From Escarpia spicata (taxonomy: Eukaryota > Annelida > Polychaeta > Sabellida > Siboglinidae), in assembly GCA_963995525.1 (NCBI GenBank), contig OZ023207.1:33304681-33368680 (forward strand): a DNA stretch of 64,000 nt, in the 5' to 3' direction. Below, piece by piece: positions 1 to 64,000 of the stretch. Both the position numbers and the translations under genes were made by a program. How positions within the stretch are numbered: position 1 is the first letter of the stretch; each line of letters starts with the position of its first letter. The notes under the pieces were generated by a model. The model was not told the DNA's origin. It made no database searches and saw nothing but the letters and a program-made list of their open reading frames with translations.

Positions 1-204
1 TGTAGATTTGTATGATAAATAGGAACAAAAATAATTCTAAAATATATATCATACAATAATAACAAAAACATTCATTACATAATTATTAGACCTTCATGTA
101 CAAACAATTATAATTGATATGATAAATATTAAACAATATAAAATAAATAAGTAAATTAAAATGTAATAAATTATTGTAAAATAATAATAATAATTACATA
201 ACAT
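1..204. other. AT-rich intron stretch with (AAT)n, next to the retroelement 3' end
   Basis: Very AT-rich, with a short (AAT)n run at about 179-195, read as (ATT)n on the retroelement strand. It may include the element's 3' UTR and tail. No coding signal is visible. It recurs at the start of every unit except that unit 10 lacks the first ~45 bp. Confidence 0.6.
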
Positions 205-1478
205 TTAGGTAAGTGCATTTGATAAAGTCCACGTGATCATATCACAGAAACGCTTCTCTAAAAAGGTGTGTTTTAAGAACTGTTTTGAACTCTGGCTGTG
301 TTTTTGCCATCCTGACACAGTCCGGCAGTCTGTTTCATAGACTTGCTGCAGACAGCAAAACGAGTGACCGTCTGCGAAGGCGGCACTGACAGTAGCGGCA
401 AAGACACCGATCTCAGTTGCCGATTCGGTTGACGTCGGTTCAGTAACTGCGCGAGATGACTCGGTGCCAGGTCATGCATCACAGAGTACGCACATACAAG
501 CACACTATATATGTCTGGCGCACACAGACAGGTAACCAATGCAAGTGCGGCAGCACTGGAGTTACGTGGTCGTACTTCCTCGTACCGCACACGAGGTGGG
601 CTGCGCAGTTTTCACACTTTGTTTTACAAGCATCGTCTGCGGTAGGCCATAGAGTAATAAATTTGCATAATCGAGGCGTGAAGTCACGAGCGCGTGCACC
701 AGGGTTTTGCATGCATCATCAGTGATGCTTCGTCGAATGTGTTCAATGTTGCGAATCTGATTGTAGCACGACTTTGCTATCTGTGCATCCTGTGCTTCCA
801 TAGTTAGAACTCTGTCAAGTATGACTCCAAGGTTGCGTACGGATGACTTCGGCGCAACCCGATGTTCGCCAATTGTCACGGAAATATCGGAGGGCAAATC
901 GTTTCGTTGTTTTGAGGTGAGGAAGACGACTGCCTCTGACTTCTGGGTGTGTATCTTAACTAATTTTGTTCAAGCCAATCGATCAACTCCGCTACACATT
1001 GTTCAATGTTCGTTTTTGCTGCAGTGAGTGGTTTCTCGTGCTCAACTGTCATATAAATTTCCGTGTCATCCGCATAACAATGATACTGCATGCCGAGTCG
1101 TGCAACGATGTCGCTCTTAGGTCTTGTGTATAAGCAGCATAATATTGACCCAAGCACAGACACGTGTTGGGCGCTACATTTAAAAACACAACCAGTCGAC
1201 GTTGTGCTTTCCACGGCGACTTTCTGATAACGTTCAGTGATATACGAATGCAAATGCCGAGACTGTGATGCCGAACGAATGTTCCCTTGAATCATCAAGA
1301 AATCAATTGTGATTAATTGCTTCAATGCGCTGAACAAATCTAACATCACGAGAACAGTCTTGCACTTTCTATCCAGCGCCGCGGCGATGTCATTCTTGAC
1401 TCACAGGAGCGCCGTCTCCGTCGAGTGGCCATGGCGGTAAGCTCATTGAAAAGGATCACGCAATGGGTGATTGTTCAG
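205..1478 (-). mobile_element. Unit 1 CR1/L2-like non-LTR retrotransposon remnant (5'-truncated RT)
   Basis: Minus-strand reading gives a decayed reverse transcriptase in several frames. Recognisable pieces in order are [11 protein letters not shown] (near 1430-1400), LDLFSALKQ (motif A region), [14 protein letters not shown] (cf. the SVLGPIL box), the YADD catalytic box at 1065-1076, [39 protein letters not shown], and a C-terminal FLKHTF segment. LHWLPV and YADDT point to the CR1/L2 group. There is no endonuclease domain, so the copy is 5'-truncated as is usual for LINEs. It is disabled by stops at 1401-1403 and 1443-1445 and by frameshifts near 955 and 505. It lies in the D-to-A intron in the sense orientation of the host gene. 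It cannot encode a working enzyme. Confidence 0.85.
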
Positions 1479-1675
1479 ATCTCAGTACGGTGTTGATTTA
1501 ATTAACATTACAGCATCAACCTTTTATTAGCTCATATCATGTGTACAGCTGTGGACTCAACATATTACCTAGAATATTCAACATTGGCCCCAATGCTGAA
1601 TATAGGGTTGCCTGAACATATAATTTGTCAACTGTGACACCTTGCCATTTATACTGATATATAAATTACACGTAC
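1479..1675 (-). other. Intron segment between RT remnant and exon D
   Basis: Non-coding intron downstream of the exon D donor. It contains a 14-bp-arm imperfect hairpin at 1574-1603 and otherwise nothing recognised. The same layout recurs in each unit. Confidence 0.7.
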
Positions 1676-1903
1676 CCGGAAACAAGCCATGCACAGACGG
1701 TTCAGTTGACGATGAAAATAATTCTGTCGATGGTGACTTTTCTTCAGACGTTGTCTCTCCTCCGGTCGATGCTGTTGTAGTTATTGATGAAGCAGTTGTA
1801 ACTGTTGCAGTAGTTGTTGCCGTACTTGTTGTGGTTGCCGTCGTTTTTGGTGATGTTGTCGTTCGTTTTGTGGTGGTTGTTATTGCCGGTGTACTTGTTG
1901 ATG
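1676..1903 (-). CDS. Unit 1 exon D: Thr/Ser-rich mucin-like spacer
   Basis: The exon is 228 nt (76 codons) and phase 1-1. The donor is TTTCCGG|GTACGTG. The acceptor is a tandem AAGCAG, with a branch-point-like GCTAAT about 35 nt upstream. By my count 29 Thr and 14 Ser make 43 of 76 residues, mostly in runs of two to four Thr broken by Ala, Ser, Pro and Lys. The C-terminal third is more acidic and ends S-V-H-G-L-F-P. There are no cysteines. This composition is typical of densely O-glycosylated, extended mucin-type linkers, so it probably spaces the EGF triplets. It differs in units 4-18 by Ser57 to Pro and in units 4 and 9 also by Thr44 to Ser. Confidence 0.88.
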
Positions 1904-4900
1904 CTGCTTTGATGGCAAGTTTAAAAGGTTGTTTTATTAGCACATACAATTATAGTCAATGAATAGAAAGTGATTCTCATTTAGGTGTTATTTTCACATT
2001 CGAACCATGTCATACACTCTATGCGACACACATCTTCTTTCATTCTAGTTTGCATAGCAACCCTATGTAAAACTTTGCAAAGTCGTCTGTAAGAATTTCA
2101 TTTGGCGACAATACGTTTTAATGATAAGTCAACAAAGCAAGTGCAACTGTTCCCACACAGCAGTATAAACTGCTATATTTAAAAAAGCAATGCTCTATTA
2201 CAAAATATTACCAAAGACATATAATAAATCAATTGAAAATATATTTCAGAGACATACACTTTATGCCAATCGCCATAGTTACGGAATTTGTTCAAACCTT
2301 GTTCACAGTGAATACCACCAAATCCAGAACTGCCGCAATCACACGTGTAACCGTTAAGTTTATCTACACATGTACCACCATTTTCGCATGGATTGCTTCT
2401 GCATTCTTTGATTTCTGCAATAGGAAACACAAATTTGATTCATGAAAGAAAGAAATGTACTAATATATAATGCAATCGGATTAGGCAGAAAAACATGGTC
2501 GTTGAATAGAGAAGGGCATCATATAGGCAAATACTCATATCGCTAATACACGTTTTCCAGTTTCGTACTTCAACGCGTGTTTTTAATCTTTAATATATAT
2601 TTACAATCAACAATGAAAATATCCTATTGCATGTTGACAACAAAAAGAAACCGCACCTGAAGAACACTGCGGATCTGTGTAGCCAAGCGCACACAAACAG
2701 GTGTACGAGTCGACTGCATCCTCGCATGTCCCACCGTTCAGGCAAGGCTTGCTTTGGCATTCATCAACATCTACACATCGACGAAAGGAGCAATGCATCA
2801 AAGAATATATTATCATCAATGAATTGGCAAGTATTTTATTGCTATAGCTTAAATTAATCTTATACATTTCATTCAATCAATCAATCTGTCGACCAGACCG
2901 TAAATAGGAAGTTTATTTCCACAACCAAATAGTATAATATTTCTAAATACACCACAATTTATTGGAAGTACAAAAATACATAATTAATCAATAGTGTGAT
3001 GGAAAGAGGAAGAGCAACATAATCACATTAATGAATTGTTCATATCCATTGATGCAGGGCTTAAGATATACACTTACCAAAATTGCAATCATTTCCTTTG
3101 TAACCCGCAGGGCACAGACACCTGTAGATAGAGCCGTCATTATCGCCTAAACATGTTCCGCCGTTTTCGCAACGTTTCGTTTTGCACAAACCTACATCTG
3201 AAACAAAAAAGACAGTACACAATAATTATATGAAGACGATCTAGCGCAGGTATGTATCGTGTACAGCAAATATACTACTCCTGTTTTGAGTTAAGTTTAT
3301 CAGGCGTGTGTCTAATTAAACATACACATAGTATTACACGAGCTATATTACTTCTGCTGCAATTTAGCGAATCCAGGTGTGTGAAGAACAAATACATCAA
3401 GTCAAATCTCGATTTACGGTCGGCTGCATCTATCTAACAATATGCCGCACTAGGACAGTCGAAGTAATGTCCGAAAGAGTAACATTTATCAAATTCATTC
3501 CTCTGATTCGAATAATAATAATTACTATACAGTTTATTTGCATAGCGCCCGAATCAACAACCAGGTTGCTCTCAGATGCTTCACATACAAGTGCACGTAA
3601 CTATGTAGATTTGTATGATAAATAGGAACAAAAATAATTCTAAAATATATATCATACAATAATAACAAAAACATTCATTACATAATTATTAGACCTTCAT
3701 GTACAAACAATTATAATTGATATGATAAATATTAAACAATATAAAATAAATAAGTAAATTAAAATGTAATAAATTATTGTAAAATAATAATAATAATTAC
3801 ATAACATTTAGGTAAGTGCATTTGATAAAGTCCACGTGATCATATCACAGAAACGCTTCTCTAAAAAGGTGTGTTTTAAGAACTGTTTTGAACTCTGGCT
3901 GTGTTTTTGCCATCCTGACACAGTCCGGCAGTCTGTTTCATAGACTTGCTGCAGACAGCAAAACGAGTGACCGTCTGCGAAGGCGGCACTGACAGTAGCG
4001 GCAAAGACACCGATCTCAGTTGCCGATTCGGTTGACGTCGGTTCAGTAACTGCGCGAGATGACTCGGTGCCAGGTCATGCATCACAGAGTACGCACATAC
4101 AAGCACACTATATATGTCTGGCGCACACAGACAGGTAACCAATGCAAGTGCGGCAGCACTGGAGTTACGTGGTCGTACTTCCTCGTACCGCACACGAGGT
4201 GGGCTGCGCAGTTTTCACACTTTGTTTTACAAGCATCGTCTGCGGTAGGCCATAGAGTAATAAATTTGCATAATCGAGGCGTGAAGTCACGAGCGCGTGC
4301 ACCAGGGTTTTGCATGCATCATCAGTGATGCTTCGTCGAATGTGTTCAATGTTGCGAATCTGATTGTAGCACGACTTTGCTATCTGTGCATCCTGTGCTT
4401 CCATAGTTAGAACTCTGTCAAGTATGACTCCAAGGTTGCGTACGGATGACTTCGGCGCAACCCGATGTTCGCCAATTGTCACGGAAATATCGGAGGGCAA
4501 ATCGTTTCGTTGTTTTGAGGTGAGGAAGACGACTGCCTCTGACTTCTGGGTGTGTATCTTAACTAATTTTGTTCAAGCCAATCGATCAACTCCGCTACAC
4601 ATTGTTCAATGTTCGTTTTTGCTGCAGTGAGTGGTTTCTCGTGCTCAACTGTCATATAAATTTCCGTGTCATCCGCATAACAATGATACTGCATGCCGAG
4701 TCGTGCAACGATGTCGCTCTTAGGTCTTGTGTATAAGCAGCATAATATTGACCCAAGCACAGACACGTGTTGGGCGCTACATTTAAAAACACAACCAGTC
4801 GACGTTGTGCTTTCCACGGCGACTTTCTGATAACGTTCAGTGATATACGAATGCAAATGCCGAGACTGTGATGCCGAACGAATGTTCCCTTGAATCATCA

Positions 4901-7900
4901 AGAAATCAATTGTGATTAATTGCTTCAATGCGCTGAACAAATCTAACATCACGAGAACAGTTTTGCACTTTCTATCCAGCGCCGCGGCGATGTCATTCTT
5001 GACTCACAGGAGCGCCGTCTCCGTCGAGTGGCCATGGCGGTAAGCTCATTGAAAAGGATCACGCAATGGGTGATTGTTCAGATCTCAGTACGGTGTTGAT
5101 TTAATTAACATTACAGCATCAACCTTTTATTAGCTCATATCATGTGTACAGCGGTGGACTCAACATATTACCTAGAATATTTAACATTGGCCCCAATGCT
5201 GAATATAGGGTTGCCTGAACATATAATTTGTCAACTGTGACACCTTGCCATTTATACTGATATATAAATTACACGTACCCGGAAACAAGCCATGCACAGA
5301 CGGTTCAGTTGACGATGAAAATAATTCTGTCGATGGTGACTTTTCTTCAGACGTTGTCTCTCCTCCGGTCGATGCTGTTGTAGTTATTGATGAAGCAGTT
5401 GTAACTGTTGCAGTAGTTGTTGCCGTACTTGTTGTGGTTGCCGTCGTTTTTGGTGATGTTGTCGTTCGTTTTGTGGTGGTTGTTATTGCCGGTGTACTTG
5501 TTGATGCTGCTTTGATGGCAAGTTTAAAAGGTTGTTTTATTAGCACATACAATTATAGTCAATGAATAGAAAGTGATTCTCATTTAGGTGTTATTTTCAC
5601 ATTCGAACCATGTCATACACGCTATGCGACACACATCTTCTTTCATTCTAGTTTGCATAGCAACCCTATGTAAAACTTTGCAAAGTCGTCTGTAAGAATT
5701 TCATTTGGCGACAATACGTTTTAATGATAAGTCAACAAAGCAAGTGCAACTGTTCCCACACAGCAGTATAAACTGCTATATTTAAAAAGCAATGCTCTAT
5801 TAAAAAATATTACCAAAGACATATAATAAATCAATTGAAAATATATTTCAGAGACATACACTTTATGCCAATCGCCATAGTTACGGAATTTGTTCAAACC
5901 TTGTTCACAGTGAAAACCACCAAATCCAGAACTGCCGCAATCACACGTGTAACCGTTAAGTTTATCTACACATGTACCACCATTTTCGCATGGATTGCTT
6001 CTGCATTCTTTGATTTCTGCAATAGGAAACACAAATTTGATTCATGAAAGAAAGAAATGTACTAATATATAATGCAATCGGATTAGGCAGAAAAACATGG
6101 TCGTTGAATAGAGAAGGGCATCATATAGGCAAATACTCATATCGCTAATACACGTTTTCCAGTTTCGTACTTCAACGCGTGTTTTTAATCTTTAATATAT
6201 ATTTACAATCAACAATGAAAATATCCTATTGCATGTAGACAACAAAAAGAAACCGCACCTGAAGAACACTGCGGATCTGTGTAGCCAAGCGCACACAAAC
6301 AGGTGTACGAGTCGACTGCATCCTCGCATGTCCCACCGTTCAGGCAAGGCTTGCTTTGGCATTCACCAACATCTACACATCGACGAAAGGACCAATGCAT
6401 CAAAGAATCTATTATCATCAATGAATTGGCAAGTATTTTATTGCTATAGCTTAAATTAATCTTATACATTTCATTCAATCAATCAATCTGTCGACCAGAC
6501 CGTAAATAGGAAGTTTATTTCCACAACCAAATAGTATAATATTTCTAAATACAGCACAATTTATTGGAAGTACAAAAATACATAATTAATCAATAGTGTG
6601 ATGGAAAGAGGAAGAGCAACATAATCACATTAATGAATTGTTCATATCCATTGATGCAGGGCTTAAGATATACACTTACCAAAATTGCAATCATTTCCTT
6701 TGTAACCCGCATGGCACAGACACCTGTAGATAGAGCCGTCATTATCGCCTAAACATGTTCCGCCGTTTTCGCAACGTTTCGTTTTGCACAAACCTACATC
6801 TGAAACAAAAAAGACAGTACACAATAATTATATGAAGACGATCTAGCGCAGGTATGTATCGTGTACAGCAAATATACTACTCCTGTTTTGAGTTAGGTTT
6901 ATCAGACGTGTGTCTAATTAAACATACACATAATATTACACGAGCTATATTACTTCTGATGCAATTTAGCGAATCCCGGTGTGTGAAGAACAAATACATC
7001 AAGTCAAATCTCGATTTACGGTCGGCTGCATCTATCTAACAATATGCCGCACTAGGACAGTCGAAGTAATGTCCGAAAGAGTAACGTTTATCAAATTCAT
7101 TCCTCTGATTCGAATAATAATAATTACTATACAGTTTATTTGCATAGCGTCCGAATCAATAACCAGATTGCTCTCAGATGCTTCACATACAAGTGCACGT
7201 AACTATGTAGATTTGTATGATAGATAGGAACAAAAATAATTCTAAAATATATATCATACAATAATAACAAAAACATTCATTACATAATTATTATACCTTT
7301 ATGTACAAACAATTATAATTGATATGATAAATATTAAACAATATAAAATAAATAAGTAAATTAAAATGTAATAAATTATTTTAAAATAATAATAATAATT
7401 ACATAACATTTAGGTAAGTGCATTTGATAAAGTCCACGTGATCATATCACAGAAACGCTTCTCTAAAAAGGTGTGTTTTAAGAACTGTTTTGAACTCTGG
7501 CTGTGTTTTTGCCATCCTGACACAGTCCGGCAGTCAGTTTCATAGACTTGCTGCAGACAGCAAAACGAGTGACCGTCTGCGAAGGCGGCACTGACAGTAG
7601 CGGCAAAGACACCGATCTCAGTTGCCGATTCGGTTGACGTCGGTTCAGTAACTGCGCGAGATGACTCGGTGCCAGGTCATGCATCACAGAGTACGCAAAT
7701 ACAAGCACTATATATGTCTGGCGCACACAGACAGGTAACCAATGCAAGTGCGGCAGCACTGGAGTTACGTGGTCGTACTTCCTCGTACCGCACACGAGGT
7801 GGGCTGCGCAGTTTTCACACTTTGTTTTACAAGCATCGTCTGCGGTAGGCCATAGAGTAATACATTTGCATAATCGAGGCGTGAAGTCACGAGCGCGTGC

Positions 7901-10900
7901 ACCAGGGTTTTGCATGCATCATCAGTGATGCTTCGTCGAATGTGTTCAATGTTGCGAATCTGATTGTAGCACGACTTTGCTATCTGTGCATCCTGTGCTT
8001 CCATAGTTAGAACTCTGTCAAGTATGACTCCAAGGTTGCGTACGGATGACTTCGGCGCAACCCGATGTTCGCCAATTGTCACGGAAATATCGGAGGGCAA
8101 ATCGTTTCGTTGTTTTGAGGTGAGGAAGACGACTGCCTCTGACTTCTGGGTGTGTATCTTAACTAATTTTGTTCAAGCCAATCGATCAACTCCGCTACAC
8201 ATTGTTCAATGTTCGTTTTTGCTGCAGTGAGTGGTTTCTCGTGCTCAACTGTCATATAAATTTCCGTGTCATCCGCATAACAATGATACTGCATGCCGAG
8301 TCGTGCAACGATGTCGCTCTTAGGTCTTGTGTATAAGCAGCATAATATTGACCCAAGCACAGACACGTGTTGGGCGCTACATTTAAAAACACAACCAGTC
8401 GACGTTGTGCTTTCCACGGCGACTTTCTGATAACGTTCAGTGATATACGAATGCAAATGCCGAGACTGTGATGCCGAACGAATGTTCCCTTGAATCATCA
8501 AGAAATCAATTGTGATTAATTGCTTCAATGCGCTGAACAAATCTAACATCACGAGAACAGTCTTGCACTTTCTATCCAGCGCCGCGGCGATGTCATTCTT
8601 GACTCACAGGAGCGCCGTCTCCGTCGAGTGGCCATGGCGGTAAGCTCATTGAAAAGGATCACGCAATGGGTGATTGTTCAGATCTCAGTACGGTGTTGAT
8701 TTAATTAACATTACAGCATCAACCTTTTATTAGCTCATATCATGTGTACAGCGGTGGACTCAACATATTACCTAGAATATTCAACATTGGCCCGAATGCT
8801 GAATATAGGGTTGCCTGAACATATAATTTGTCAACTGTGACACCTTGCCATTTATACTGATATATAAATTACACGTACCCGGAAACAAGCCATGCACAGA
8901 CGGTTCAGTTGACGATGAAAATAATTCTGTCGATGGTGACTTTTCTTCAGACGTTGTCTCTCCTCCGGTCGATGCTGTTGTAGTTATTGATGAAGCAGTT
9001 GTAACTGTTGCAGTAGTTGTTGCCGTACTTGTTGTGGTTGCCGTCGTTTTTGGTGATGTTGTCGTTCGTTTTGTGGTGGTTGTTATTGCCGGTGTACTTG
9101 TTGATGCTGCTTTGATGGCAAGTTTAAAAGGTTGTTTTATTAGCACATACAATTATAGTCAATGAATAGAAAGTGATTCTCATTTAGGTGTTATTTTCAC
9201 ATTCGAACCATGTCATACACGCTATGCGACACACATCTTCTTTCATTCTAGTTTGCATAGCAACCCTATGTAAAACTTTGCAAAGTCGTCTGTAAGAATT
9301 TCATTTGGCGACAATACGTTTTAATGATAAGTCAACAAAGCAAGTGCAACTGTTCCCACACAGCAGTATAAACTGCTATATTTAAAAAGCAATGCTCTAT
9401 TAAAAAATATTACCAAAGACATATAATAAATCAATTGAAAAAATATATTTCAGAGACATACACTTTATGCCAATCGTCATAGTTACGGAATTTGTTCAAA
9501 CCTTGTTCACAGTGAAAACCACCAAATCCAGAACTGCCGCAATCACACGTGTAACCGTTAAGTTTATCTACACATGTACCACCATTTTCGCATGGATTGC
9601 TTCTGCATTCTTTGATTTCTGCAATAGGAAACACAAATTTGATTCATGAAAGAAAGAAATGTACTAATATATAATGCAATCGGATTAGGCAGAAAAACAT
9701 GGTCGTTGAATAGAGAAGGGCATCATATAGGCAAATACTCATATCGCTAATACACGTTTTCCAGTTTCGTACTTCAACGCGTGTTTTTAATCTTTAATAT
9801 ATATTTACAATCAACAATGAAAATATCCTATTGCATGTAGACAACAAAAAGAAACCGCACCTGAAGAACACTGCGGATCTGTGTAGCCAAGCGCACACAA
9901 ACAGGTGTACGAGTCGACTGCATCCTCGCATGTCCCACCGTTCAGGCAAGGGTTGCTTTGGCATTCATCAACATCTACACATCGACGAAAGGAGCAATGC
10001 ATCAAAGAATATATTATCATCAATGAATTGGCAAGTATTTTATTGCTATAGCTTAAATTAATCTTATACATTTCATTCAATCAATCAATCTGTCGACCAG
10101 ACCGTAAATAGGAAGTTTATTTCCACAACCAAATAGTATAATATTTCTAAATACACCACAATTTATTGGAAGTACAAAAATACATAATTAATCAATAGTG
10201 TGATGGAAAGAGGAAGAGCAACATAATCACATTAATGAATTGTTCATATCCATTGATGCAGGGCTTAAGATATACACTTACCAAAATTGCAATCATTTCC
10301 TTTGTAACCCGCAGGGCACAGACACCTGTAGATAGAGCCGTCATTATCGCCTAAACATGTTCCGCCGTTTTCGCAACGTTTCGTTTTGCACAAACCTACA
10401 TCTGAAACAAAAAAGACAGTACACAATAATTATATGAAGACGATCTAGCGCAGGTATGTATCGTGTACAGCAAATATACTACTCCTGTTTTGAGTTAAGT
10501 TTATCAGGCGTGTGTCTAATTAAACATACACATAGTATTACACGAGCTATATTACTTCTGCTGCAATTTAGCGAATCCAGGTGTGTGAAGAACAAATACA
10601 TCAAGTCAAATCTCGATTTACGGTCGGCTGCATCTATCTAACAATATGCCGCACTAGGACAGTCGAAGTAATGTCCGAAAGAGTAACATTTATCAAATTC
10701 ATTCCTCTGATTCGAATAATAATAATTACTATACAGTTTATTTGCATAGCGCCCGAATCAACAACCAGATTGCTCTCAGATGCTTCACATACAAGTGCAC
10801 GTAACTATGTAGATTTGTAAGATAGATAGGAACAAAAATAATTCTAAAATATATATCATACAATAATAACGAAAACATTCATTACATAACTATTACACCT

Positions 10901-55900: not shown

Positions 55901-58900
55901 AGAGACATACACTTTATGCCAATCGCCATAGTTACGGAATTTGTTCAAACCTTGTTCACAGTGAAAACCACCAAATCCAGAACTGCCGCAATCACACGTG
56001 TAACCGTTAAGTTTATCTACACATGTACCACCATTTTCGCATGGATTGCTTCTGCATTCTTTGATTTCTGCAATAGGAAACACAAATTTGATTCATGAAA
56101 GAAAGAAATGTACTAATATATAATGCAATCGGATTAGGCAGAAAAACATGGTCGTTGAGTAGAGAAGGGCATCATATAGGCAAATACTCATATCGCTAAT
56201 ACACGTTTTCCAGTTTCGTACTTCAACGCGTGTTTTTTATCTTTAACATATATTTACAATCAACAATGAAAATATCCTATTGCATGTTGACAACAAAAAG
56301 AAACCGCACCTGAAGAACACTGCGGATCTGTGTAGCCAAGCGCACACAAACAGGTGTACGAGTCGACTGCATCCTCGCATGTCCCACCGTTCAGGCAAGG
56401 CTTGCTTTGGCATTCATCAACATCTACACATCGACGAAAGGACCAATGCATCAAAGAATCTATTATCATCAATGAATTGGCAAGTATTTTATTGCTATAG
56501 CTTAAATTAATCTTATACATTTCATTCAATCAATCAATCTGTCGACCAGACCGTAAATAGGAAGTTTATTTCCACAACCAAATAGTATAATATTTCAAAA
56601 TACAGCACAATTTATTGGAAGTACAAAAATACATAATTAATCAATAGTGTGATGGAAAGAGGAAGAGCAACATAATCACATTAATGAATTGTTCATATCC
56701 ATTGATGCAGGGCTTAAGATATACACTTACCAAAATTGCAATCATTTCCTTTGTAACCCGCATGGCACAGACACCTGTAGATAGAGCCGTCATTATCGCC
56801 TAAACATGTTCCGCCGTTTTCGCAACCTTTCGTTTTGCACAAACCTACATCTGAAACAAAAAAGACAGTACACAATAATTATATGAAGACGATCTAGCGC
56901 AGGTATGTATCGTGTACAGCAAATATACTACTCCTGTTTTGAGTTAGGTTTATCAGACGTGTGTCTAATTAAACATACACATAGTATTACACGAGCTATA
57001 TTACTTCTGATGCAATTTAGCGAATCCCGGTGTGTGAAGAACAAATACATCAAGTCAAATCTCGATTTACGGTCGGCTGCATCTATCTAACAATATGCCG
57101 CACTAGGACAGTCGAAGTAATGTCCGAAAGAGTAACATTTATCAAATTCATTCCTCTGATTCGAATAATAATAATTACTATACAGTTTATTTGCATAGCG
57201 TCCGAATCAACAACCAGATTGCTCTCAGATGCTTCACATACAAGTGCACGTAACTATGTAGATTTGTATGATAGATAGGAACAAAAATAATTCTAAAATA
57301 TATATCATACAATAATAACAAAAACATTCATTACATAATTATTATACCTTGATGTACAAACAATTATAATTGATATGATAAATATTAAACAATATAAAAT
57401 AAATAAGTAAATTAAAATGTAATACATTATTTTAAAATAATAATAATAATTACATAACATTTAGGTAAGTGCATTTGATAAAGTCCACGTGATCATATCA
57501 CAGAAACGCTTCTCTAAAAAGGTGTGTTTTAAGAACTGTTTTGAACTCTGGCTGTGTTTTTGCCATCCTGACACAGTCCGGCAGTCAGTTTCATAGACTT
57601 GCTGCAGACAGCAAAACGAGTGACCGTCTGCGAAGGCGGCACTGACAGTAGCGGCAAAGACACCGATCTCAGTTGCCGATTCGGTTGACGTCGGTTCAGT
57701 AACTGCGCGAGATGACTCGGTGCCAGGTCATGCATCACAGAGTACGCAAATACAAGCACTATATATGTCTGGCGCACACAGACAGGTAACCAATGCAAGT
57801 GCGGCAGCACTGGAGTTACGTGGTCGTACTTCCTCGTACCGCACACGAGGTGGGCTGCGCAGTTTTCACACTTTGTTTTACAAGCATCGTCTGCGGTAGG
57901 CCATAGAGTAATACATTTGCATAATCGAGGCGTGAAGTCACGAGCGCGTGCACCAGGGTTTTGCATGCATCATCAGTGATGCTTCGTCGAATGTGTTCAA
58001 TGTTGCGAATCTGATTGTAGCACGACTTTGCTATCTGTGCATCCTGTGCTTCCATAGTTAGAACTCTGTTAAGTATGACTCCAAGGTTGCGTACGGATGA
58101 CTTCGGCGCAACCCGATGTTCGCCAATTGTCACGGAAATATCGGAGGGCAAATCGTTTCGTTGGTTTGAGGTGAGGAAGACGACTGCCTCTGACTTCTGG
58201 GTGTGTATCTTAACTAATTTTGTTCAAGCCAATCGATCACCTCCGCTACACATTGTTCAATGTTCGTTTTTGCTGCAGTGAGTGGTTTCTCGTGCTCAAC
58301 TGTCATATAAATTTCCGTGTCATCCGCATAACAATGATAATGCATGCCGTGTCGTGCAACGATGTCGCTCTTAGGTCTTGTGTATAAGCAGCATAATATT
58401 GGCGCAAGCACAGACACGTGTGGGGCGCTACATTTAAAAACACAACCAGTCGACGTTGTGCTTTCCACGGCGACTTTCTGATAACGTTCAGTGATATACG
58501 AATGCAAATGCCGAGACTGTGATGCCGAACGAATGTTCCCTTGAATCATCAAGAAATCAATTGTGATTAATTGCTTCAATGCGCTGAACAAATCTAACAT
58601 CACGAGAACAGTCTTGCACTTTCTATCCAGCGCCGCGGCGATGTCATTCTTGACTCACAGGAGCGCCGTCTCCGTCGAGTGGCCATGGCGGTAAGCTCAT
58701 TGAAAAGGATCACGCAATGGGTGATTGTTCAGATCTCAGTACGGTGTTGATTTAATTAACATTACAGCATCAACCTTTTATTAGCTCATATCATGTGTAC
58801 AGCGGTGGACTCAACATATTACCTAGAATATTCAACATTGGCCCGAATGCTGAATATAGGGTTGCCTGAACATATAATTTGCCAACTGTGACACCTTGCC

Positions 58901-61900
58901 ATTTATACTGACATATAAATTACACGTACCCGGAAACAAGCCATGCACAGACGGTTCAGTTGACGATGAAAATAATTCTGTCGATGGTGGCTTTTCTTCA
59001 GACGTTGTCTCTCCTCCGGTCGATGCTGTTGTAGTTATTGATGAAGCAGTTGTAACTGTTGCAGTAGTTGTTGCCGTACTTGTTGTGGTTGCCGTCGTTT
59101 TTGGTGATGTTGTCGTTCGTTTTGTGGTGGTTGTTATTGCCGGTGTACTTGTTGATGCTGCTTTGATGGCAAGTTTAAACGGTTGTTTTATTAGCACATA
59201 CATTTATAGTCAATGAATAAAAAGTGTTTCTCATTTAGATGTTATTTTCACATTCGAACCATGTCATACACGCTATGAGACACACATCTTCTTTCATTCT
59301 AGTTTGCATAGCGACCCTATGTAAAACTTTGCAAAGTCGTCTGTAAGAATTTCATTTGGCGACAATACGTTTTAATGATAAGTCAACAAAGCAAGTGCAA
59401 CTGTTCCCACACAGCAGTATAAACTGCTATATTTAAAAAGCAATGCTCTATTAAAAAATATTACCAAAGACATATAATAAATCAATTGAAAATATATTTC
59501 AGAGACATACACTTTATGCCAATCGCCATAGTTACGGAATTTGTTCAAACCTTGTTCACAGTGAAAACCACCAAATCCAGAACTGCCGCAATCACACGTG
59601 TAACCGTTAAGTTTATCTACACATGTACCACCATTTTCGCATGGATTGCTTCTGCATTCTTTGATTTCTGCAATAGGAAACACAAATTTGATTCATGAAA
59701 GAAAGAAATGTACTAATATATAATGCAATCGGATTAGGCAGAAAAACATGGTCGTTGAGTAGAGAAGGGCATCATATAGGCAAATACTCATATCGCTAAT
59801 ACACGTTTTCCAGTTTCGTACTTCAACGCGTGTTTTTAATCTTTAATATATATTTACAATCAACAATGAAAATATCCTATTGCATGTTGACAAGAAAAAG
59901 AAACCGCACCTGAAGAACACTGCGGATCTGTGTAGCCAAGCGCACACAAACAGGTGTACGAGTCGACTGCATCCTCGCATGTCCCACCGTTCAGGCAAGG
60001 CTTGCTTTGGCATTCATCAACATCTACACATCGACGAAAGGAGCAATGCATCAAAGAATATATTATCATCAATGAATTGGCAAGTATTTTATTGCTATAG
60101 CTTAAATTAATCTTATACATTTCATTCAATCAATCAATCTGTCGACCAGACCGTAAATAGGAAGTTTATTTCCACAACCAAATAGTATAATATTTCTAAA
60201 TACAGCACAATTTATTGGAAGTACAAAAATACATAATTAATCAATAGTGTGATGGAAAGAGGAAGAGCAACATAATCACATTAATGAATTGTTCATATCC
60301 ATTGATGCCGGGCTTAAGATATACACTTACCAAAATTGCAATCATTTCCTTTGTAACCCGCAGGGCACAGACACCTGTAGATAGAGCCGTCATTATCGCC
60401 TAAACATGTTCCGCCGTTTTCGCAACGTTTCGTTTTGCACAAACCTACATCTGAAACAAAAAAGAGAGGACACAATAATTATATGAAGACGATCTAGCGC
60501 AGGTATGTATCGTGTACAGCAAATATACTACTCCTGTTTTGAGTTAAGTTTATCAGGCGTGTGTCTAATTAAACATACACATAGTATTACACGAGCTATA
60601 TTACTTCTGCTGCAATTTAGCGAATCCAGGTGTGTGAAGAACAAATACATCAAGTCAAATCTCGATTTACGGTCGGCTGCATCTATCTAACAATATGCCG
60701 CACTAGGACAGTCGAAGTAATGTCCGAAAGAGTAACATTTATCAAATTCATTCCTCTGATTCGAATAATAATAATTACTATACAGTTTATTTGCATAGCG
60801 CCCGAATCAACAACCAGATTGCTCTCAGATGCTTCACATACAAGTGCACGTAACTATGTAGATTTGTATGATAGATAGGAACAAAAATAATTCTAAAATA
60901 TATATCATACAATAATAACGAAAACATTCATTACATAATTATTAGACCTTCATGTACAAACAATTATCATTGATATGATAAATATTAAACAATATAAAAT
61001 AAATAAGTAAATTAAAATGTAATAAATTATTTTAAAATAATAATAATAATTACATAACATTTAGGTAAGTGCATTTGATAAAGTCCACGTGATCATATCA
61101 CAGAAACGCTTCTCTAAAAAGGTGTGTTTTAAGAACTGTTTTGAACTCTGGTTGTGTTTTTGCCATCCTGACACAGTCCGGCAGTCTGTTTCATAGACTT
61201 GCTGCAGACAGCAAAACGAGTGACCGTCTGCGAAGGCGGCACTGACAGTAGCGGCAAAGACACCGATCTCAGTTGCCGATTCGGTTGACGTCGGTTCAGT
61301 AACTGCGAGAGATGATTCGGTGCCAGGTCATGCATCACAGAGTACGCACATACAAGCACACTATATGTCTGGCGCACACAGACAGGTAACCAATGCAAGT
61401 GCGGCAGCACTGGAGTTACGTGGTCGTACTTCCTCGTACCGCACACGAGGTGGGCTGCGCAGTTTTCACACTTTGTTTTACAAGCATCGTCTGCGGTAGG
61501 CCATAGAGTAATAAATTTGCATAATCGAGGCGTGAAGTCACGAGCGCGTGCACCAGGGTTTTGCATGCATCATCAGTGATGCTTCGTCGAATGTGTTCAA
61601 TGTTGCGAATCTGATTGTAGCACGACTTTGCTATCTGTGCATCCTGTGCTTCCATAGTTAGAACTCTGTCAAGTATGACTCCAAGGTTGCGTACGGATGA
61701 CTTCGGCGCAACCCGATGTTCGCCAATTGTCACGGAAATATCGGAGGGCAAATCGTTTCGTTGTTTTGAGGTGAGGAAGACGACTGCCTCTGACTTCTGG
61801 GTGTGTATCTTAACTAATTTTGTTCAAGCCAATCGATCACCTCCGCTACACATTGTTCAATGTTCGTTTTTGCTGCAGTGAGTGGTTTCTCGTGCTCAAC

Positions 61901-64000
61901 TGTCATATAAATGTCCGTGTCATCCGCATAACAATGATACTGCATGCCGTGTCGTGCAACGATGTCGCTCTTAGGTCTTGTGTATAAGCAGCATAATATT
62001 GACCCAAGCACAGACACGTGTGGGGCGCTACATTTAAAAACACAACCAGTCGACGTTGTGCTTTCCACGGCGACTTTCTGATAACGTCCAGTGATATACG
62101 AATGCAAATGCCGAGACTGTGATGCCGAACGAATGTTCCCTTGAATCATCAAGAAATCAATTGTGATTAATTGCTTCAATGCGCTGAACAAATCTAACAT
62201 CACGAGAACAGTCTTGCACTTTCTATCCAGCGCCGCGGCGATGTCATTCTTGACTCACAGGAGCGCCGTCTCCGTCGAGTGGCCATGGCGGTAAGCTCAT
62301 TGAAAAGGATCACGCAATGGGTGATTGTTCAGATCTCAGTACGGTGTTGATTTAATTAACATTACAGCATCAACCTTTTATTAGCTCATATCATGTGTAC
62401 AGCGGTGGACTCAACATATTACCTAGAATATTCAACATTGGCCCGAATGCTGAATATAGGGTTGCCTGAACATATAATTTGCCAACTGTGACACCTTGCC
62501 ATTTATACTGACATATAAATTACACGTACCCGGAAACAAGCCATGCACAGACGGTTCAGTTGACGATGAAAATAATTCTGTCGATGGTGGCTTTTCTTCA
62601 GACGTTGTCTCTCCTCCGGTCGATGCTGTTGTAGTTATTGATGAAGCAGTTGTAACTGTTGCAGTAGTTGTTGCCGTACTTGTTGTGGTTGCCGTCGTTT
62701 TTGGTGATGTTGTCGTTCGTTTTGTGGTGGTTGTTATTGCCGGTGTACTTGTTGATGCTGCTTTGATGGCAAGTTTAAACGGTTGTTTTATTAGCACATA
62801 CATTAATAGTCAATGAATAGAAAGTGTTTCTCATTTAGATGTTATTTTCACATTCGAACCATGTCATACACGCTATGCGACACACATCTTCTTTCATTCA
62901 AGTTTGCATAGCAACCCTATGTAAAACTTTGCAAAGTCGTCTGTAAGAATTTCATTTGGCGACAATACGTTTTAATGATAAGTCAACAAAGCAAGTGCAA
63001 CTGTTCCCACACAGCAGAATAAACTGCTATATTTAAAAAGCAATGCTCTATTAAAAAATATTACCAAAGACATATAATAAATCAATTGAAATATATTTCA
63101 GAGACATACACTTTATGCCAATCGCCATAGTTACGGAATTTGTTCAAACCTTGTTCACAGTGAAAACCACCAAATCCAGAACTGCCGCAATCACACGTGT
63201 AACCGTTAAGTTTATCTACACATGTACCACCATTTTCGCATGGATTGCTTCTGCATTCTTTGATTTCTGCAACAGGAAACACAAATTTGATTCATGAAAG
63301 AAAGAAATGTACCAATATATAATGCAATCGGATTAGGCAGAAAAACATGGTCGTTGAGTAGAGAAGGGCATCATATAGGCAAATACTCATATCGCTAATA
63401 CACGTTTTCCAGTTTCGTACTTCAACGCGTGTTTTTAATCTTTAATATATATTTACAATCAACAATGAAAATATCCTATTGAATGTTGACAACAAAAAGA
63501 AACCGCACCTGAAGAACACTGCGGATCTGTGTAGCCAAGCGCACACAAACAGGTGTACGAGTCGACTGCATCCTCGCATGTCCCACCGTTCAGGCAAGGC
63601 TTGCTTTGGCATTCATCAACATCTACACATCGACGAAAGGAGCAATGCATCAAAGAATATATTATCATCAATAAATTGGCAAGTATTTTATTGCTATAGC
63701 TTAAATTAATCTTATACATTTCATTCAATCAATCAATCTGTCGACCAGACCGTAAATAGGAAGTTTATTTCCACAACCAAATAGTATAATATTTCTAAAT
63801 ACAGCACAATTTATTGGAAGTACAAAAATACATAATTAATCAATAGTGTGATGGAAAGAGGAAGAGCAACATAATCACATTAATGAATTGTTCATATCCA
63901 TTGATGCCGGGCTTAAGATATACACTTACCAAAATTGCAATCATTTCCTTTGTAACCCGCAGGGCACAGACACCTGTAGATAGAGCCGTCATTATCGCCT
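1676..64000 (-). CDS. Internal part of a giant EGF/mucin-like repeat protein gene
   Basis: The gene is read from high to low coordinate. Seventy-one complete exons and one truncated exon follow the order A-B-C-D in every unit, each with an AG acceptor and GT donor, all in phase 1. Spliced together they give about 3,460 residues of EGF-cbEGF-EGF-Thr/Ser spacer repeated without a stop. EGF domains have six cysteines forming three disulphides and fold outside the cytosol, so a secreted or cell-surface product is expected. No signal peptide, transmembrane segment, start or stop is present because both gene ends are outside the window. EGF-rich proteins with Thr-rich linkers occur among matrix, mucus and adhesive proteins, but no orthologue can be named. 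An untranscribed pseudogene array cannot be excluded from sequence alone. Confidence 0.82.
1904..2297 (-). other. C-D intron (394 bp in unit 1)
   Basis: Bounded by the exon C donor GTTTGA and the tandem exon D acceptor AAGCAG. It holds an alternative GTATGT donor at 2252-2257. No other coding, RNA or repeat signal was recognised. Confidence 0.75.
2298..2414 (-). CDS. Unit 1 exon C: EGF-like domain
   Basis: The exon is 117 nt (39 codons) and phase 1-1. The acceptor is CTATTGCAG. The chosen donor is ACAAG|GTTTGA, the only site that keeps the class-1 phase needed to join exon D in its Thr-rich frame. It matches consensus on the exon side but not at +3 and +4. Cysteines are at 5, 10, 16, 25, 27 and 37, with nine residues between C5 and C6. 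[10 protein letters not shown] fits Asp hydroxylation, CRSNPC fits O-glucose and CENGGTC fits O-fucose, but E-I-K-E replaces the calcium-binding start. A stronger-looking donor (GTATGT) lies 40 nt downstream but would end in phase 2. Unit 1 has Ile35 where all other units have Phe; units 5-7 have Ser6 for Arg6. Confidence 0.88.
2657..2770 (-). CDS. Unit 1 exon B: calcium-binding EGF domain
   Basis: The exon is 114 nt (38 codons) and phase 1-1. Its acceptor ends GATGTGTAG and its donor is TTCAG|GTGCGG. It starts D-V-D-E-C, the calcium-ligand signature of cbEGF domains, with the first Asp codon split across the A-B intron. Cysteines are at 5, 10, 16, 25, 27 and 36. [10 protein letters not shown] matches the Asp/Asn beta-hydroxylation pattern C-x-[DN]-x4-[FY]-x-C. 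CQSKPC fits the O-glucose consensus C1-x-S-x-P-C2 and CLNGGTC fits O-fucose. The C5-C6 segment [10 protein letters not shown] nearly fits the EOGT O-GlcNAc pattern but has Asp where Gly is usual. Units 2, 4 and 9 change the second Asp to Gly; unit 3 has Asn for Lys8. Confidence 0.94.
2771..3077 (-). other. A-B intron (307 bp)
   Basis: AT-rich intron between the GTAAGTG donor of exon A and the acceptor of exon B. It carries a short ATTCAATCA-type repeat (about 2871-2886). Nothing else was recognised. The B-C intron (2415-2656, 242 bp) is similarly featureless. Confidence 0.75.
3078..3197 (-). CDS. Unit 1 exon A: EGF-like domain
   Basis: The exon is 120 nt (40 codons) and phase 1-1. Its acceptor reads TTTGTTTCAG and its donor TTTTG|GTAAGTG, both strong. 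Counting the split first codon (G|AT, Asp) as residue 1, cysteines fall at 5, 10, 16, 27, 29 and 38, the standard EGF spacing with eight residues between C5 and C6. The C2-C3 loop reads CENGGTC, which fits the O-fucosylation consensus C2-x4-[ST]-C3. The C1-C2 loop CKTKRC lacks the O-glucose Ser, and the C3-C4 loop is too long for the Asp/Asn hydroxylation pattern, so this is a non-calcium EGF. Its last G supplies the first base of the Asp that opens exon B. Across units the main changes are Pro30 to His (units 2, 4, 9, 12, 16) and Arg9 to Gly (12, 16). Confidence 0.92.
3198..3603 (-). other. Intron upstream of exon A
   Basis: Non-coding intron at the right end of each unit, joining the AT-rich start of the next unit. 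It is the region that best separates unit haplotypes: first type in units 1, 3, 5-8, 13, 14, 17 and, in part, 18; second type in 2, 4, 12, 16 (and 9 up to its deletion); third type in 10, 11, 15. The open stretches on the plus strand here show no protein-family signal. Confidence 0.7.
3808..5081 (-). mobile_element. Unit 2 RT remnant
   Basis: Nearly identical to the unit 1 copy, with one silent-looking C-to-T near 4962. It keeps the long CACACTATATAT tract that breaks the frame at about 4107, and the YADDTEIY form. Confidence 0.83.
5279..6799 (-). CDS. Unit 2 exon cassette (EGF, cbEGF, EGF, mucin spacer)
   Basis: Exons in transcription order: A 6680-6799, B 6259-6372, C 5900-6016, D 5279-5506, inside repeat unit 3604-7205. 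All splice sites match unit 1. Exon A has His for Pro30. Exon B reads D-V-G-E-C, losing one calcium-ligand Asp while keeping all six cysteines and the glycosylation motifs. Exon C has the common Phe35. Exon D keeps Ser57 like units 1 and 3. The right-hand end of the unit carries the second flank haplotype also seen in units 4, 9, 12 and 16. Confidence 0.9.
7410..8681 (-). mobile_element. Unit 3 RT remnant
   Basis: It carries the CACTATATAT form of the short tract, 2 bp shorter than in units 1 and 2. This joins two frames into a 145-codon open stretch ending at 7478. It has Lys-Leu in place of Lys-Gln near 7537, a marker shared with units 5, 13 and 17. Confidence 0.83.
8879..10401 (-). CDS. 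Unit 3 exon cassette
   Basis: Exons: A 10282-10401, B 9861-9974, C 9502-9618, D 8879-9106, inside unit 7206-10807. Exon B has CQSNPC instead of CQSKPC, leaving the O-glucose Ser and Pro intact. Exon A has Pro30, exon B the full D-V-D-E start, and exon D Ser57. The C-D intron carries two extra A residues just downstream of exon C, and a Gly-to-Asp change in the readthrough frame lies outside the exon. Confidence 0.9.
11012..12297 (-). mobile_element. Unit 4 RT remnant, least deleted copy
   Basis: It retains 12 bp at 12273-12284 that the other copies inspected lack. These four codons (within N-N-H-L-D-M-N-T-L) restore a normal RT N-terminal reading leading into D-P-F-Q. It also has private substitutions near 11765, 11813 and 12105. 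It keeps YADDTEIY and the long CACACTATATAT tract. Confidence 0.83.
12495..14015 (-). CDS. Unit 4 exon cassette
   Basis: Exons: A 13896-14015, B 13475-13588, C 13116-13232, D 12495-12722, inside unit 10808-14421, the longest unit. Exon D has Ser44 and Pro57 and a GTACATG donor. Exon B is the D-V-G-E-C form and exon A the His30 form. From about 12,400 to 14,100 the DNA is almost identical to unit 9 exactly 18,000 bp downstream. I noticed one substitution in that stretch, near 31061, and did not compare it exhaustively. Confidence 0.9.
14626..15897 (-). mobile_element. Unit 5 RT remnant
   Basis: It has the CACTATATAT tract and YADDTDIY. Private changes include the LNHLL-like Gln-to-His change near 14867 and TATTGTG at 15541, just outside the tract that is perfectly shared with unit 6. 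Confidence 0.83.
16095..17615 (-). CDS. Unit 5 exon cassette
   Basis: Exons: A 17496-17615, B 17075-17188, C 16716-16832, D 16095-16322, inside unit 14422-18021. Exon C has Ser6 (CSSNPC), which still satisfies C-x-S-x-P-C. Exon B is the intact D-V-D-E form and exon A has Pro30. The cassette is identical to unit 6 in every base I compared. Confidence 0.9.
18226..19497 (-). mobile_element. Unit 6 RT remnant
   Basis: It has the CACACTATAT tract, YADDTDIY, and a private CTCTCAAGTA (Asp to Glu near 18833) shared only with unit 7. Confidence 0.83.
19695..21215 (-). CDS. Unit 6 exon cassette
   Basis: Exons: A 21096-21215, B 20675-20788, C 20316-20432, D 19695-19922, inside unit 18022-21621. It repeats unit 5 at a shift of exactly 3,600 bp, including the CSSNPC variant and intron markers such as the CTAGACC variant near exon B. 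It looks like the product of one recent single-unit duplication. Confidence 0.9.
21826..23097 (-). mobile_element. Unit 7 RT remnant
   Basis: I saw no difference from the unit 6 copy at a 3,600-bp shift; the duplicated tract covers the whole remnant. Confidence 0.83.
23295..24815 (-). CDS. Unit 7 exon cassette
   Basis: Exons: A 24696-24815, B 24275-24388, C 23916-24032, D 23295-23522, inside unit 21622-25221. It matches unit 6 up to about 23,780 and then diverges at several intron positions. Exon C keeps CSSNPC, so that variant is confined to units 5, 6 and 7. Confidence 0.9.
25426..26697 (-). mobile_element. Unit 8 RT remnant
   Basis: The C-terminal reading stays open to a stop at 25426, as also in units 9 and 10, because GTCATGC is GCCATGC here and supplies a Met. 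It has YADDTDIY and a private CACGGTG at 25681. Confidence 0.83.
26895..28415 (-). CDS. Unit 8 exon cassette
   Basis: Exons: A 28296-28415, B 27875-27988, C 27516-27632, D 26895-27122, inside unit 25222-28821. The encoded residues are the common form: Pro30 in A, D-V-D-E in B, Arg6 and Phe35 in C, Pro57 in D. Its intron markers, for example AATAAAAAGTG just upstream of exon D in transcription terms, recur in units 10-13 and 15-17. Confidence 0.9.
29026..30297 (-). mobile_element. Unit 9 RT remnant
   Basis: A mosaic: the 3' part near 29,300 resembles units 8 and 10, while the middle ([19 protein letters not shown]) resembles units 1-3. It lacks unit 4's extra 12 bp although the neighbouring exons are unit-4 type, so the recombination point lies between about 30,290 and 30,400. 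Confidence 0.83.
30495..32015 (-). CDS. Unit 9 exon cassette
   Basis: Exons: A 31896-32015, B 31475-31588, C 31116-31232, D 30495-30722, inside unit 28822 to about 32103. The exon half is unit-4 type: Ser44 in D, D-V-G-E-C in B, His30 in A. The retroelement half resembles units 1-3, so the unit is a recombinant. The unit ends early at a deletion junction 89 bp beyond exon A, inside the intron, leaving all four exons and splice sites intact. Confidence 0.9.
32090..32120. other. Deletion junction between units 9 and 10
   Basis: The sequence CTCCTGTTT of the exon A upstream intron runs directly into ATCATACAATAAT of the AT-rich stretch. This removes 364 bp relative to a 3,600-bp period. Only one base (T) is shared at the breakpoint. 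Exons on both sides are untouched. Confidence 0.9.
32262..33533 (-). mobile_element. Unit 10 RT remnant
   Basis: Similar to unit 8 ([17 protein letters not shown]). It is the first remnant after the 364-bp deletion, which removed part of the AT-rich stretch beyond its 3' end but not the remnant itself. Confidence 0.83.
33731..35251 (-). CDS. Unit 10 exon cassette
   Basis: Exons: A 35132-35251, B 34711-34824, C 34352-34468, D 33731-33958, inside unit 32104-35657. Residues are the common form. The intron 5' of exon A carries the third flank haplotype (clustered changes at 35302-35304 and 35427-35431), shared only with units 11 and 15. Confidence 0.9.
35862..37133 (-). mobile_element. Unit 11 RT remnant
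   Basis: It has [18 protein letters not shown] and APHVS. A private AGGTAAATGC at its 3' end is shared with unit 15 and helps place the left edge of the 4-unit duplication. Confidence 0.83.
37331..38851 (-). CDS. Unit 11 exon cassette (first unit of the 4-unit block)
   Basis: Exons: A 38732-38851, B 38311-38424, C 37952-38068, D 37331-37558, inside unit 35658-39257. Exon residues are the common form. Diagnostic intron bases (GTTAGCACATAC upstream of D, ACTTCAGCGCG between B and C) recur only in unit 15, 14,399 bp away. Confidence 0.9.
39462..40733 (-). mobile_element. Unit 12 RT remnant
   Basis: Differs from unit 11 by ATCGGAAGGC at 40141 and a few 3' bases; the same stops are present. Confidence 0.83.
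40931..42451 (-). CDS. Unit 12 exon cassette
   Basis: Exons: A 42332-42451, B 41911-42024, C 41552-41668, D 40931-41158, inside unit 39258-42857. Exon A has both His30 and Arg9 to Gly (TKGC), the most altered exon A. Exon B combines second-haplotype intron flanks with an intact D-V-D-E start, so the calcium-site variant and its flanking haplotype have been separated by recombination or reversion. Confidence 0.9.
43062..44333 (-). mobile_element. Unit 13 RT remnant
   Basis: It has [18 protein letters not shown] and the private VSVLAPIL reading (Gly to Ala), plus GTTAAGTATG near 43670 (Asp to Asn). It is shared with unit 17. Confidence 0.83.
44531..46051 (-). CDS. Unit 13 exon cassette
   Basis: Exons: A 45932-46051, B 45511-45624, C 45152-45268, D 44531-44758, inside unit 42858-46457. 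Exon residues are the common form. The intron base changing GACAAC to GACAAG just downstream of exon B, and the GAGAGG change upstream of exon A, are also found in unit 17. Confidence 0.9.
46662..47933 (-). mobile_element. Unit 14 RT remnant
   Basis: Private changes include APNHLSQLL and a Glu-to-Gly change near 47690 (TGRYQK), both shared with unit 18. Confidence 0.83.
48131..49650 (-). CDS. Unit 14 exon cassette
   Basis: Exons: A 49531-49650, B 49110-49223, C 48751-48867, D 48131-48358, inside unit 46458-50056. A one-base deletion in the C-D intron near 48690 makes this unit 3,599 bp and is shared with unit 18. Exon residues are the common form. Confidence 0.9.
50261..51532 (-). mobile_element. 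Unit 15 RT remnant
   Basis: Copy of the unit 11 remnant at a 14,399-bp shift. Confidence 0.83.
51730..53250 (-). CDS. Unit 15 exon cassette (copy of unit 11)
   Basis: Exons: A 53131-53250, B 52710-52823, C 52351-52467, D 51730-51957, inside unit 50057-53656. I saw no difference from unit 11 in the exons or in its private intron markers. Confidence 0.9.
53861..55132 (-). mobile_element. Unit 16 RT remnant
   Basis: Copy of the unit 12 remnant, including ATCGGAAGGC at 54541. Confidence 0.83.
55330..56850 (-). CDS. Unit 16 exon cassette (copy of unit 12)
   Basis: Exons: A 56731-56850, B 56310-56423, C 55951-56067, D 55330-55557, inside unit 53657-57256. It shares the His30 and Gly9 exon A of unit 12 and that unit's private ATCGGAAGGC and TTTTTTATC markers. 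Confidence 0.9.
57461..58732 (-). mobile_element. Unit 17 RT remnant
   Basis: Copy of the unit 13 remnant, including the VSVLAPIL and CACTATATAT forms. Confidence 0.83.
58930..60450 (-). CDS. Unit 17 exon cassette (copy of unit 13)
   Basis: Exons: A 60331-60450, B 59910-60023, C 59551-59667, D 58930-59157, inside unit 57257-60856. It shares unit 13's private changes CTATGAGAC and GCGACCC in the C-D intron. Confidence 0.9.
61061..62332 (-). mobile_element. Unit 18 RT remnant
   Basis: Copy of the unit 14 remnant, including APNHLSQLL and TGRYQK. Confidence 0.83.
62530..64000 (-). CDS. Unit 18 exon cassette, exon A cut by window end
   Basis: Exons: A 63930-64000 (3' 71 of an expected 120 nt, keeping cysteines 27, 29 and 38 and the GTAAGTG donor), B 63509-63622, C 63150-63266, D 62530-62757. 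It is the copy of unit 14, including the one-base intron deletion. The gene continues upstream beyond the window. Confidence 0.88.

Follow-up and report, generated by a model that had tools for sequence, protein, structure and literature searches.

A 64-kb tandem array of four-exon EGF-mucin units that probably forms the coding interior of one very large animal gene

Results

The window, by which we mean the whole stretch of 64,000 nucleotides analyzed here, consists of a tandem array on the minus strand in which units of ~3.6 kb follow one another end to end from position 1 to 64000, and both ends of the array lie beyond it. The units are ordered in the transcript from high to low coordinates. 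Tandem Repeats Finder placed one landmark 18 times at a spacing of 3,599 to 3,616 bp, with a single exception of 3,236 bp. The 17 complete units, numbered U1 to U17 from the low-coordinate end, are 98.4 to 100% identical to one another, and all of them contain the same four exons, A to D, which bears out the original prediction of a repeat of about 3.6 kb built of four exons.

At the low end lies a stub (1-825) that holds only intron between exon D and the next exon A and shows no difference from U1 over 825 aligned columns. It is followed by U1 at 826-4428 (exons A, B, C, and D, here and below in that order, at 3078-3197, 2657-2770, 2298-2414, and 1676-1903), U2 at 4429-8028 (6680-6799, 6259-6372, 5900-6016, and 5279-5506), U3 at 8029-11644 (10282-10401, 9861-9974, 9502-9618, and 8879-9106), U4 at 11645-15244 (13896-14015, 13475-13588, 13116-13232, and 12495-12722), U5 at 15245-18844 (17496-17615, 17075-17188, 16716-16832, and 16095-16322), and U6 at 18845-22444 (21096-21215, 20675-20788, 20316-20432, and 19695-19922). 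The middle of the window is taken up by U7 at 22445-26044 (24696-24815, 24275-24388, 23916-24032, and 23295-23522), U8 at 26045-29644 (28296-28415, 27875-27988, 27516-27632, and 26895-27122), U9 at 29645-32880 (31896-32015, 31475-31588, 31116-31232, and 30495-30722), U10 at 32881-36480 (35132-35251, 34711-34824, 34352-34468, and 33731-33958), and U11 at 36481-40080 (38732-38851, 38311-38424, 37952-38068, and 37331-37558). Above these are U12 at 40081-43680 (42332-42451, 41911-42024, 41552-41668, and 40931-41158), U13 at 43681-47280 (45932-46051, 45511-45624, 45152-45268, and 44531-44758), U14 at 47281-50879 (49531-49650, 49110-49223, 48751-48867, and 48131-48358), U15 at 50880-54479 (53131-53250, 52710-52823, 52351-52467, and 51730-51957), U16 at 54480-58079 (56731-56850, 56310-56423, 55951-56067, and 55330-55557), and U17 at 58080-61679 (60331-60450, 59910-60023, 59551-59667, and 58930-59157). 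A unit cut by the high end of the window (61680-64000) retains B (63509-63622), C (63150-63266), and D (62530-62757) whole and 71 of the 120 nt of A (63930-64000), with four donors and three acceptors present.

Exons A, B, C, and D measure 120, 114, 117, and 228 nt in every complete unit, each a multiple of three, and together give 579 nt or 193 amino acids. Read in transcript order, U4 has exon A at 14015-13896, a 307-bp intron, exon B at 13588-13475, a 242-bp intron, exon C at 13232-13116, a 393-bp intron, and exon D at 12722-12495, with 2,093 bp until the following exon A. In each of the 17 complete units, AG precedes and GT follows all four exons, whose lengths never differ and which contain neither an in-frame stop nor an indel. 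Every exon boundary, including that from D to the next A, is in phase 1, with the first base of the codon upstream and the second and third downstream, so the symmetric phase 1-1 and the sum of 579 nt that had been proposed for all exons hold in each of the 17 complete units. It follows arithmetically from these lengths and phases, as had also been proposed, that gain or loss of whole units or the skipping of a single exon keeps the frame. The coding sequence in the window totals 10,373 nt (17 × 579 + 530), or ~3,457 residues, in agreement with the ~3,460 estimated earlier. Exon D of U4 is open only in the phase demanded by exons A to C and has stops in both other frames, so that a different splice phase at C would terminate the protein. 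The array has the hallmarks of a multi-exon coding VNTR: head-to-tail multi-kb units with complete exons (17 of 17), unit borders in introns of equal phase, a coding unit divisible by three (579 nt), and near-identical units with signs of exchange. The emphasis that the original prediction placed on symmetric phase is weakened, since, although every exon is phase 1-1, modules of class 1-1 are standard in the multidomain proteins of animals, where it is well established that they are shuffled and inserted into phase 1 introns (PMC3927616).

Exons A, B, and C each encode one complete six-cysteine EGF domain, giving 18 cysteines per unit in 17 of 17 units, and each exceeds the Pfam cutoff for EGF; as single EGF domains on single exons with flanking phase 1 introns, they are class 1-1 EGF modules. 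A survey quoted in another paper gives 0.93 exon per EGF repeat (PMC2725086). For the calcium-binding form, EGF_CA, exon B alone scored 20.9 of the 27 bits required and thus fell under the Pfam cutoff, while two units joined scored 38.3 and were over it. Exon D encodes 76 amino acids without cysteine, and in the unit counted 29 Thr, 13 Ser, and 6 Pro (55% Ser plus Thr) give it a composition that fits a mucin-like (PTS) domain. The proposed order of EGF, calcium-binding EGF, EGF, and mucin stands for A, C, and D; the calcium-binding start of exon B, DVDEC, is found in 14 of the 17 complete units but reads DVGEC in the other 3. The three units concerned are U2, U4, and U9 (exon B at 6259-6372, 13475-13588, and 31475-31588), and this change removes a likely calcium ligand from the encoded domain. 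Every one of the 17 complete units encodes 3 motifs for O-fucose, 2 for O-glucose, and 2 for Asp/Asn hydroxylation. Only EGF-type domains exceeded the Pfam cutoff in two joined units, where neither a kringle nor an SRCR domain was found. Matches to a Borna virus protein and, over a stretch with Thr-rich sequence, to an APOBEC-like deaminase were under the cutoff and were judged to be due to chance.

Relatives of the encoded protein were sought in three protein searches. The first used a 386-amino-acid query against targets of ~212 to 675 amino acids (best 120 of 375 matches, from the 7,987 candidates with most words in common), the second used a 1,544-amino-acid query against targets of ~849 to 2,702 amino acids (best 120 of 2,885 matches, from the 7,946 candidates with most words in common), and the third, aimed at a collapsed one-unit transcript, used a 233-amino-acid query against targets of ~128 to 407 amino acids (best 120 of 298 matches). 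Among the matches listed in these searches, there was no close relative, only generic EGF proteins; the long alignments had ~30% identity, and the best short one had 54% over 42% of the query. By a simple pattern rule, none of the 342 collected matches alternated between EGF and Ser/Thr-rich sequence more than once, whereas in eight units from the window the rule recovered 8 of 8 such alternations, and the original statement that no named protein was known with exactly this repeat thus agrees with these 342 matches. The top match of the 386-amino-acid search, a score outlier from Paralvinella, was by eye a sequence without a mucin repeat. The nearest solved chains were EGF tandems of Delta-like 1 and Notch. 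An IMG/VR scan returned 39 stretches that fit a pattern, with none confirmed as a relative, and among the matches listed for open-licence papers no title concerned an (EGF3-mucin)n repeat.

Complete units, compared in all 136 pairs, differed at a median of 34 and a maximum of 57 sites, with at least 20 differences in 120 pairs; U5 and U6 differ at 4 sites and U10 and U11 at 7. When shared sites with two states were paired, 342 of the 2,701 pairs had all four combinations, which indicates that blocks have been exchanged between units. The mean difference was 29.4 between neighbors and 27.4 to 34.9 at separations of 2 to 8; as neighbors are not clearly closer, recent copying between neighbors alone does not order the array. 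U9 (3,236 bp) is shorter by 364 bp, wholly intron sequence, with a deletion junction deduced from alignment columns at ~32104/32105, 89 bp ahead of exon A.

Within 35432-64000, a block of four units at 35432-49601 is found again at 49831-64000, a shift of 14,399 bp, with 2 mismatches in 14,170 bp. U15 is identical to U11 and U16 to U12, as is the unit cut by the high end to U14 over the part that they share, whereas 2 sites distinguish U17 from U13. This 14.4-kb block is either a very recent tandem duplication or an assembly loop, and in the latter case the units would be real and coding, while their number or order would be a product of the assembly, with the identical block representing a loop in the graph. 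A length of 14.4 kb is about that of common long reads, and the reads may not have spanned a repeat of this size with so few mismatches. However, the two mismatches themselves speak against a pure copy, and variants private to single units and mosaic patterns are seen elsewhere in the array, among them the 364-bp loss from U9 and the additional bases of U1 and U3, as is to be expected of real units. We consider an assembly origin of the unit number or order unlikely, and as it is compatible with a coding array inside one large gene, the probabilities given to the two need not total one. Indirectly, the four-unit block supports an array in flux with a labile number of units, unless it is an assembly loop.

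The exons were less variable than the introns. In the 17 complete units, 8 variants were found at 579 exon sites versus 131 at 3,021 intron sites (Fisher P = 3.4e-4; counted by columns, 126 of 3,050 intron columns are variable), a variation ~3-fold lower in exons and about one-third of that predicted from intron rates. When clustered neighboring changes with the same carriers were merged, the counts were 8 versus 117 (P = 0.0017), and when the exon mask was slid around the unit, 21 of 3,629 positions equaled it, with 0 of 3,509 among shifts of at least 60 columns. Gaps were confined to introns, and no stop or loss of a splice dinucleotide was seen in the 17 complete units. All 8 exon variants were nonsynonymous, with no synonymous change and no stop, whereas 19.4 nonsynonymous changes, 5.5 synonymous changes, and 1.8 stops were expected at intron rates. 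The chance of zero synonymous changes at intron rates is 0.004; that of zero stops (P = 0.16) is weak taken alone, and given 8 changes, the lack of silent ones is unsurprising by itself (~0.14 to 0.16, by arithmetic from those rates).

These numbers bear on whether the array is in use. It could instead be a silent satellite that arose when part of the inside of an EGF gene was amplified and lost its expression, with frames still open because the copies are young. The near identity of the units, the lack of a close relative among the matches listed in the three protein searches, and the position of the gene ends out of sight of the window would fit such an origin, as would the missing synonymous variants, which are unlike the usual outcome of protein-level selection. 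Against this, exon variation was about one-third of the intron-rate prediction in three tests, all splice dinucleotides are kept, and the stops expected are absent, weak as this last point is by itself. We regard a silent satellite as quite unlikely, since the lower variability of the exons together with the absence of stops, indels, and splice site loss argues for a coding array that is used rather than a dead one. The original claim of coding function is thus supported indirectly by the threefold difference, but not in the form of protein-level selection alone, which does not account for the low exon variation when 8 of 8 variants are nonsynonymous; a different or a further cause is needed. 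The exons appear to be spared at silent sites too, and splicing signals or exon-biased repair or conversion could be the cause.

Splice donors were scored with a simple consensus matrix over the 253 GT sites of a 3.9-kb stretch. The donors of exons A and B ranked 1 and 2, the exon C donor (GTTTGA) was weak at rank 23, and the exon D donor of U4 ranked 33. Exon D is followed by the donor GTACGT in 15 of the 17 units, with a score of 7.2 compared to 3.9 for that of U4; U4 and U9 carry GTACAT instead (12495 and 30495), and in-frame skipping of the mucin exon D is possible in these two units. The acceptor of exon D has two in-frame AGs three bases apart and, on direct reading, a poor pyrimidine tract. 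The least certain junctions are those at the donor of exon C and the acceptor of exon D, both of which are weak, and from the splice sites as a whole a joined A-B-C-D message is probable.

Candidate gene ends were also considered. The hexamers AATAAA and ATTAAA occur within the unit, including in introns between coding exons, and therefore carry little weight. A signal-peptide exon was sought in one unit and none was convincing; 12 hydrophobic ATG frames were listed there, none of which, by eye, had a convincing phase 1 donor among the sites listed, these being without a G ahead of the GT or without the usual bases after it. Left unspliced, exon D of U4 reads 32 codons further to a stop. The hexamers, the hydrophobic frames, and this stop might suggest that every unit is a small gene of its own, with its own start and end, in a tandem family, but this is very improbable given that every exon junction, including the one between D and the next A, is in phase 1, that no candidate start in the unit examined leads to a convincing donor, and that the hexamers also lie between coding exons. 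A tRNA scan of the whole window and an Rfam search of 9001-20000 found nothing.

Discussion

Taken together, the window is probably the inside of one very large animal gene on the minus strand, where a giant EGF-mucin glycoprotein would have its central array. The coding middle of this gene would be a tandem four-exon module of an EGF domain (A), a calcium-binding EGF domain (B), a further EGF domain (C), and a 76-residue mucin-like linker (D). We infer that the array is transcribed and spliced from A through D and on to the next A as a single gene with its start and end beyond the window. The predicted product, a glycoprotein, would be either secreted or tethered to a membrane, and O-glycosylated spacers would separate its short EGF rods, an alternation repeated at least 17 to 18 times. 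Through unequal crossing-over and gene conversion, whole units could be added, removed, or homogenized, and such exchange leaves the frame unbroken because each unit begins and ends within an intron and has only phase 1-1 exons. Variation in copy number between individuals is likely.

Copy-variable coding repeats that span exons and introns are already known from LPA and DMBT1. In the human LPA gene, the KIV-2 unit of ~5,550 bp contains two exons (160 plus 182 nt, a multiple of three) that are 98 to 100% identical, the introns hold pieces of LINEs, the unit number is highly variable with ~40 alleles, and subtypes are defined by synonymous variants in exon 1 (PMC7613587). The present array resembles KIV-2 in being an intragenic coding repeat of several kilobases with whole exons in each unit and LINE-bearing introns. 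In contrast to LPA, where two exons make one kringle, the unit here has four exons and not a single synonymous exon variant. Human DMBT1 has 7 to 20 or 21 SRCR domains with Thr/Ser-rich glycosylated spacers; its copy number varies, a four-domain unit being among the parts duplicated or deleted, and the mutation rate is 0.7 to 2.7% per generation (PMC4851238, PMC9038570). The alternation of Cys-rich domains with Thr/Ser-rich spacers is similar to that between the SRCR domains and SIDs of DMBT1/salivary agglutinin, but the Cys-rich domain is EGF here and SRCR there, and DMBT1 has C-terminal CUB and ZP domains, while the window does not include the gene ends. The array works like those of LPA and DMBT1, and nothing places it in either gene family.

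Long products and repeated Thr/Ser-rich coding sequence are also typical of mucin VNTRs. In MUC2, MUC5AC, MUC6, and others, the VNTR is reported to lie within one large exon (PMC13345508, PMC6269512), whereas the mucin-like stretch here is a short exon, and three EGF exons and introns intervene in every unit.

Notch, crumbs, eyes shut, and fibropellin share the EGF sequence type and the motifs for O-fucose, O-glucose, and Asp/Asn hydroxylation with the array, but identity is ~30% over long alignments among the matches listed, and their other defining domains are absent from the unit. The Notch family has LNR, transmembrane, and ankyrin parts after its EGF array; in the unit, only EGF-type domains exceeded the Pfam cutoff, and the gene ends lie beyond the window. 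Notch receptors are not known to carry mucin linkers between their EGF domains. The mechanism of the array is known, the domain cassette was not found elsewhere among the matches examined, and the array is large and uniform.

As for function, our best guess, by analogy with DMBT1, is that the product would act at a mucosal or other outer surface in adhesion or multivalent binding, and that its reach and avidity would depend on the number of units. A more speculative reading, which we think has little chance of being correct, makes unit number a trait in its own right: the reach and valence of a surface or mucus glycoprotein would be tuned in the population by rapid in-frame turnover of units, with immunity, adhesion, or self-recognition as possible settings, and the exons would be kept uniform at silent and coding sites by a mechanism other than protein selection, such as repair or conversion that favors exons where transcription of the array is heavy.

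If expressed, the coding array would extend over at least 64 kb, with an entire domain set duplicated as one cassette and 98.4 to 100% identity between units, and the expansion, homogenization, and frame maintenance of multi-exon coding repeats could be studied in a natural case beyond the few human ones. Short reads tend to collapse such arrays and gene sets lose them; more of them may be hidden.

Two stretches of intron deserve mention. The unit's longest run of columns without a variant (alignment columns 2892-3095, 203 columns) falls in the long intron after exon D and could be due to chance or to an unseen element. A LINE reverse-transcriptase remnant, which we take to resemble the CR1/L2 group, lies on the strand of the gene at 11012-12207 and at homologous places elsewhere, copied with the unit. 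RVT_1 (PF00078) was matched in the two places tested, at 11809-12207 on the minus strand in the D-to-A intron (E = 9.5e-5) and at 15379-15819 (E = 1.6e-4), both below the Pfam gathering score. The remnant lies within the aligned unit and is therefore older than the expansion of the array.
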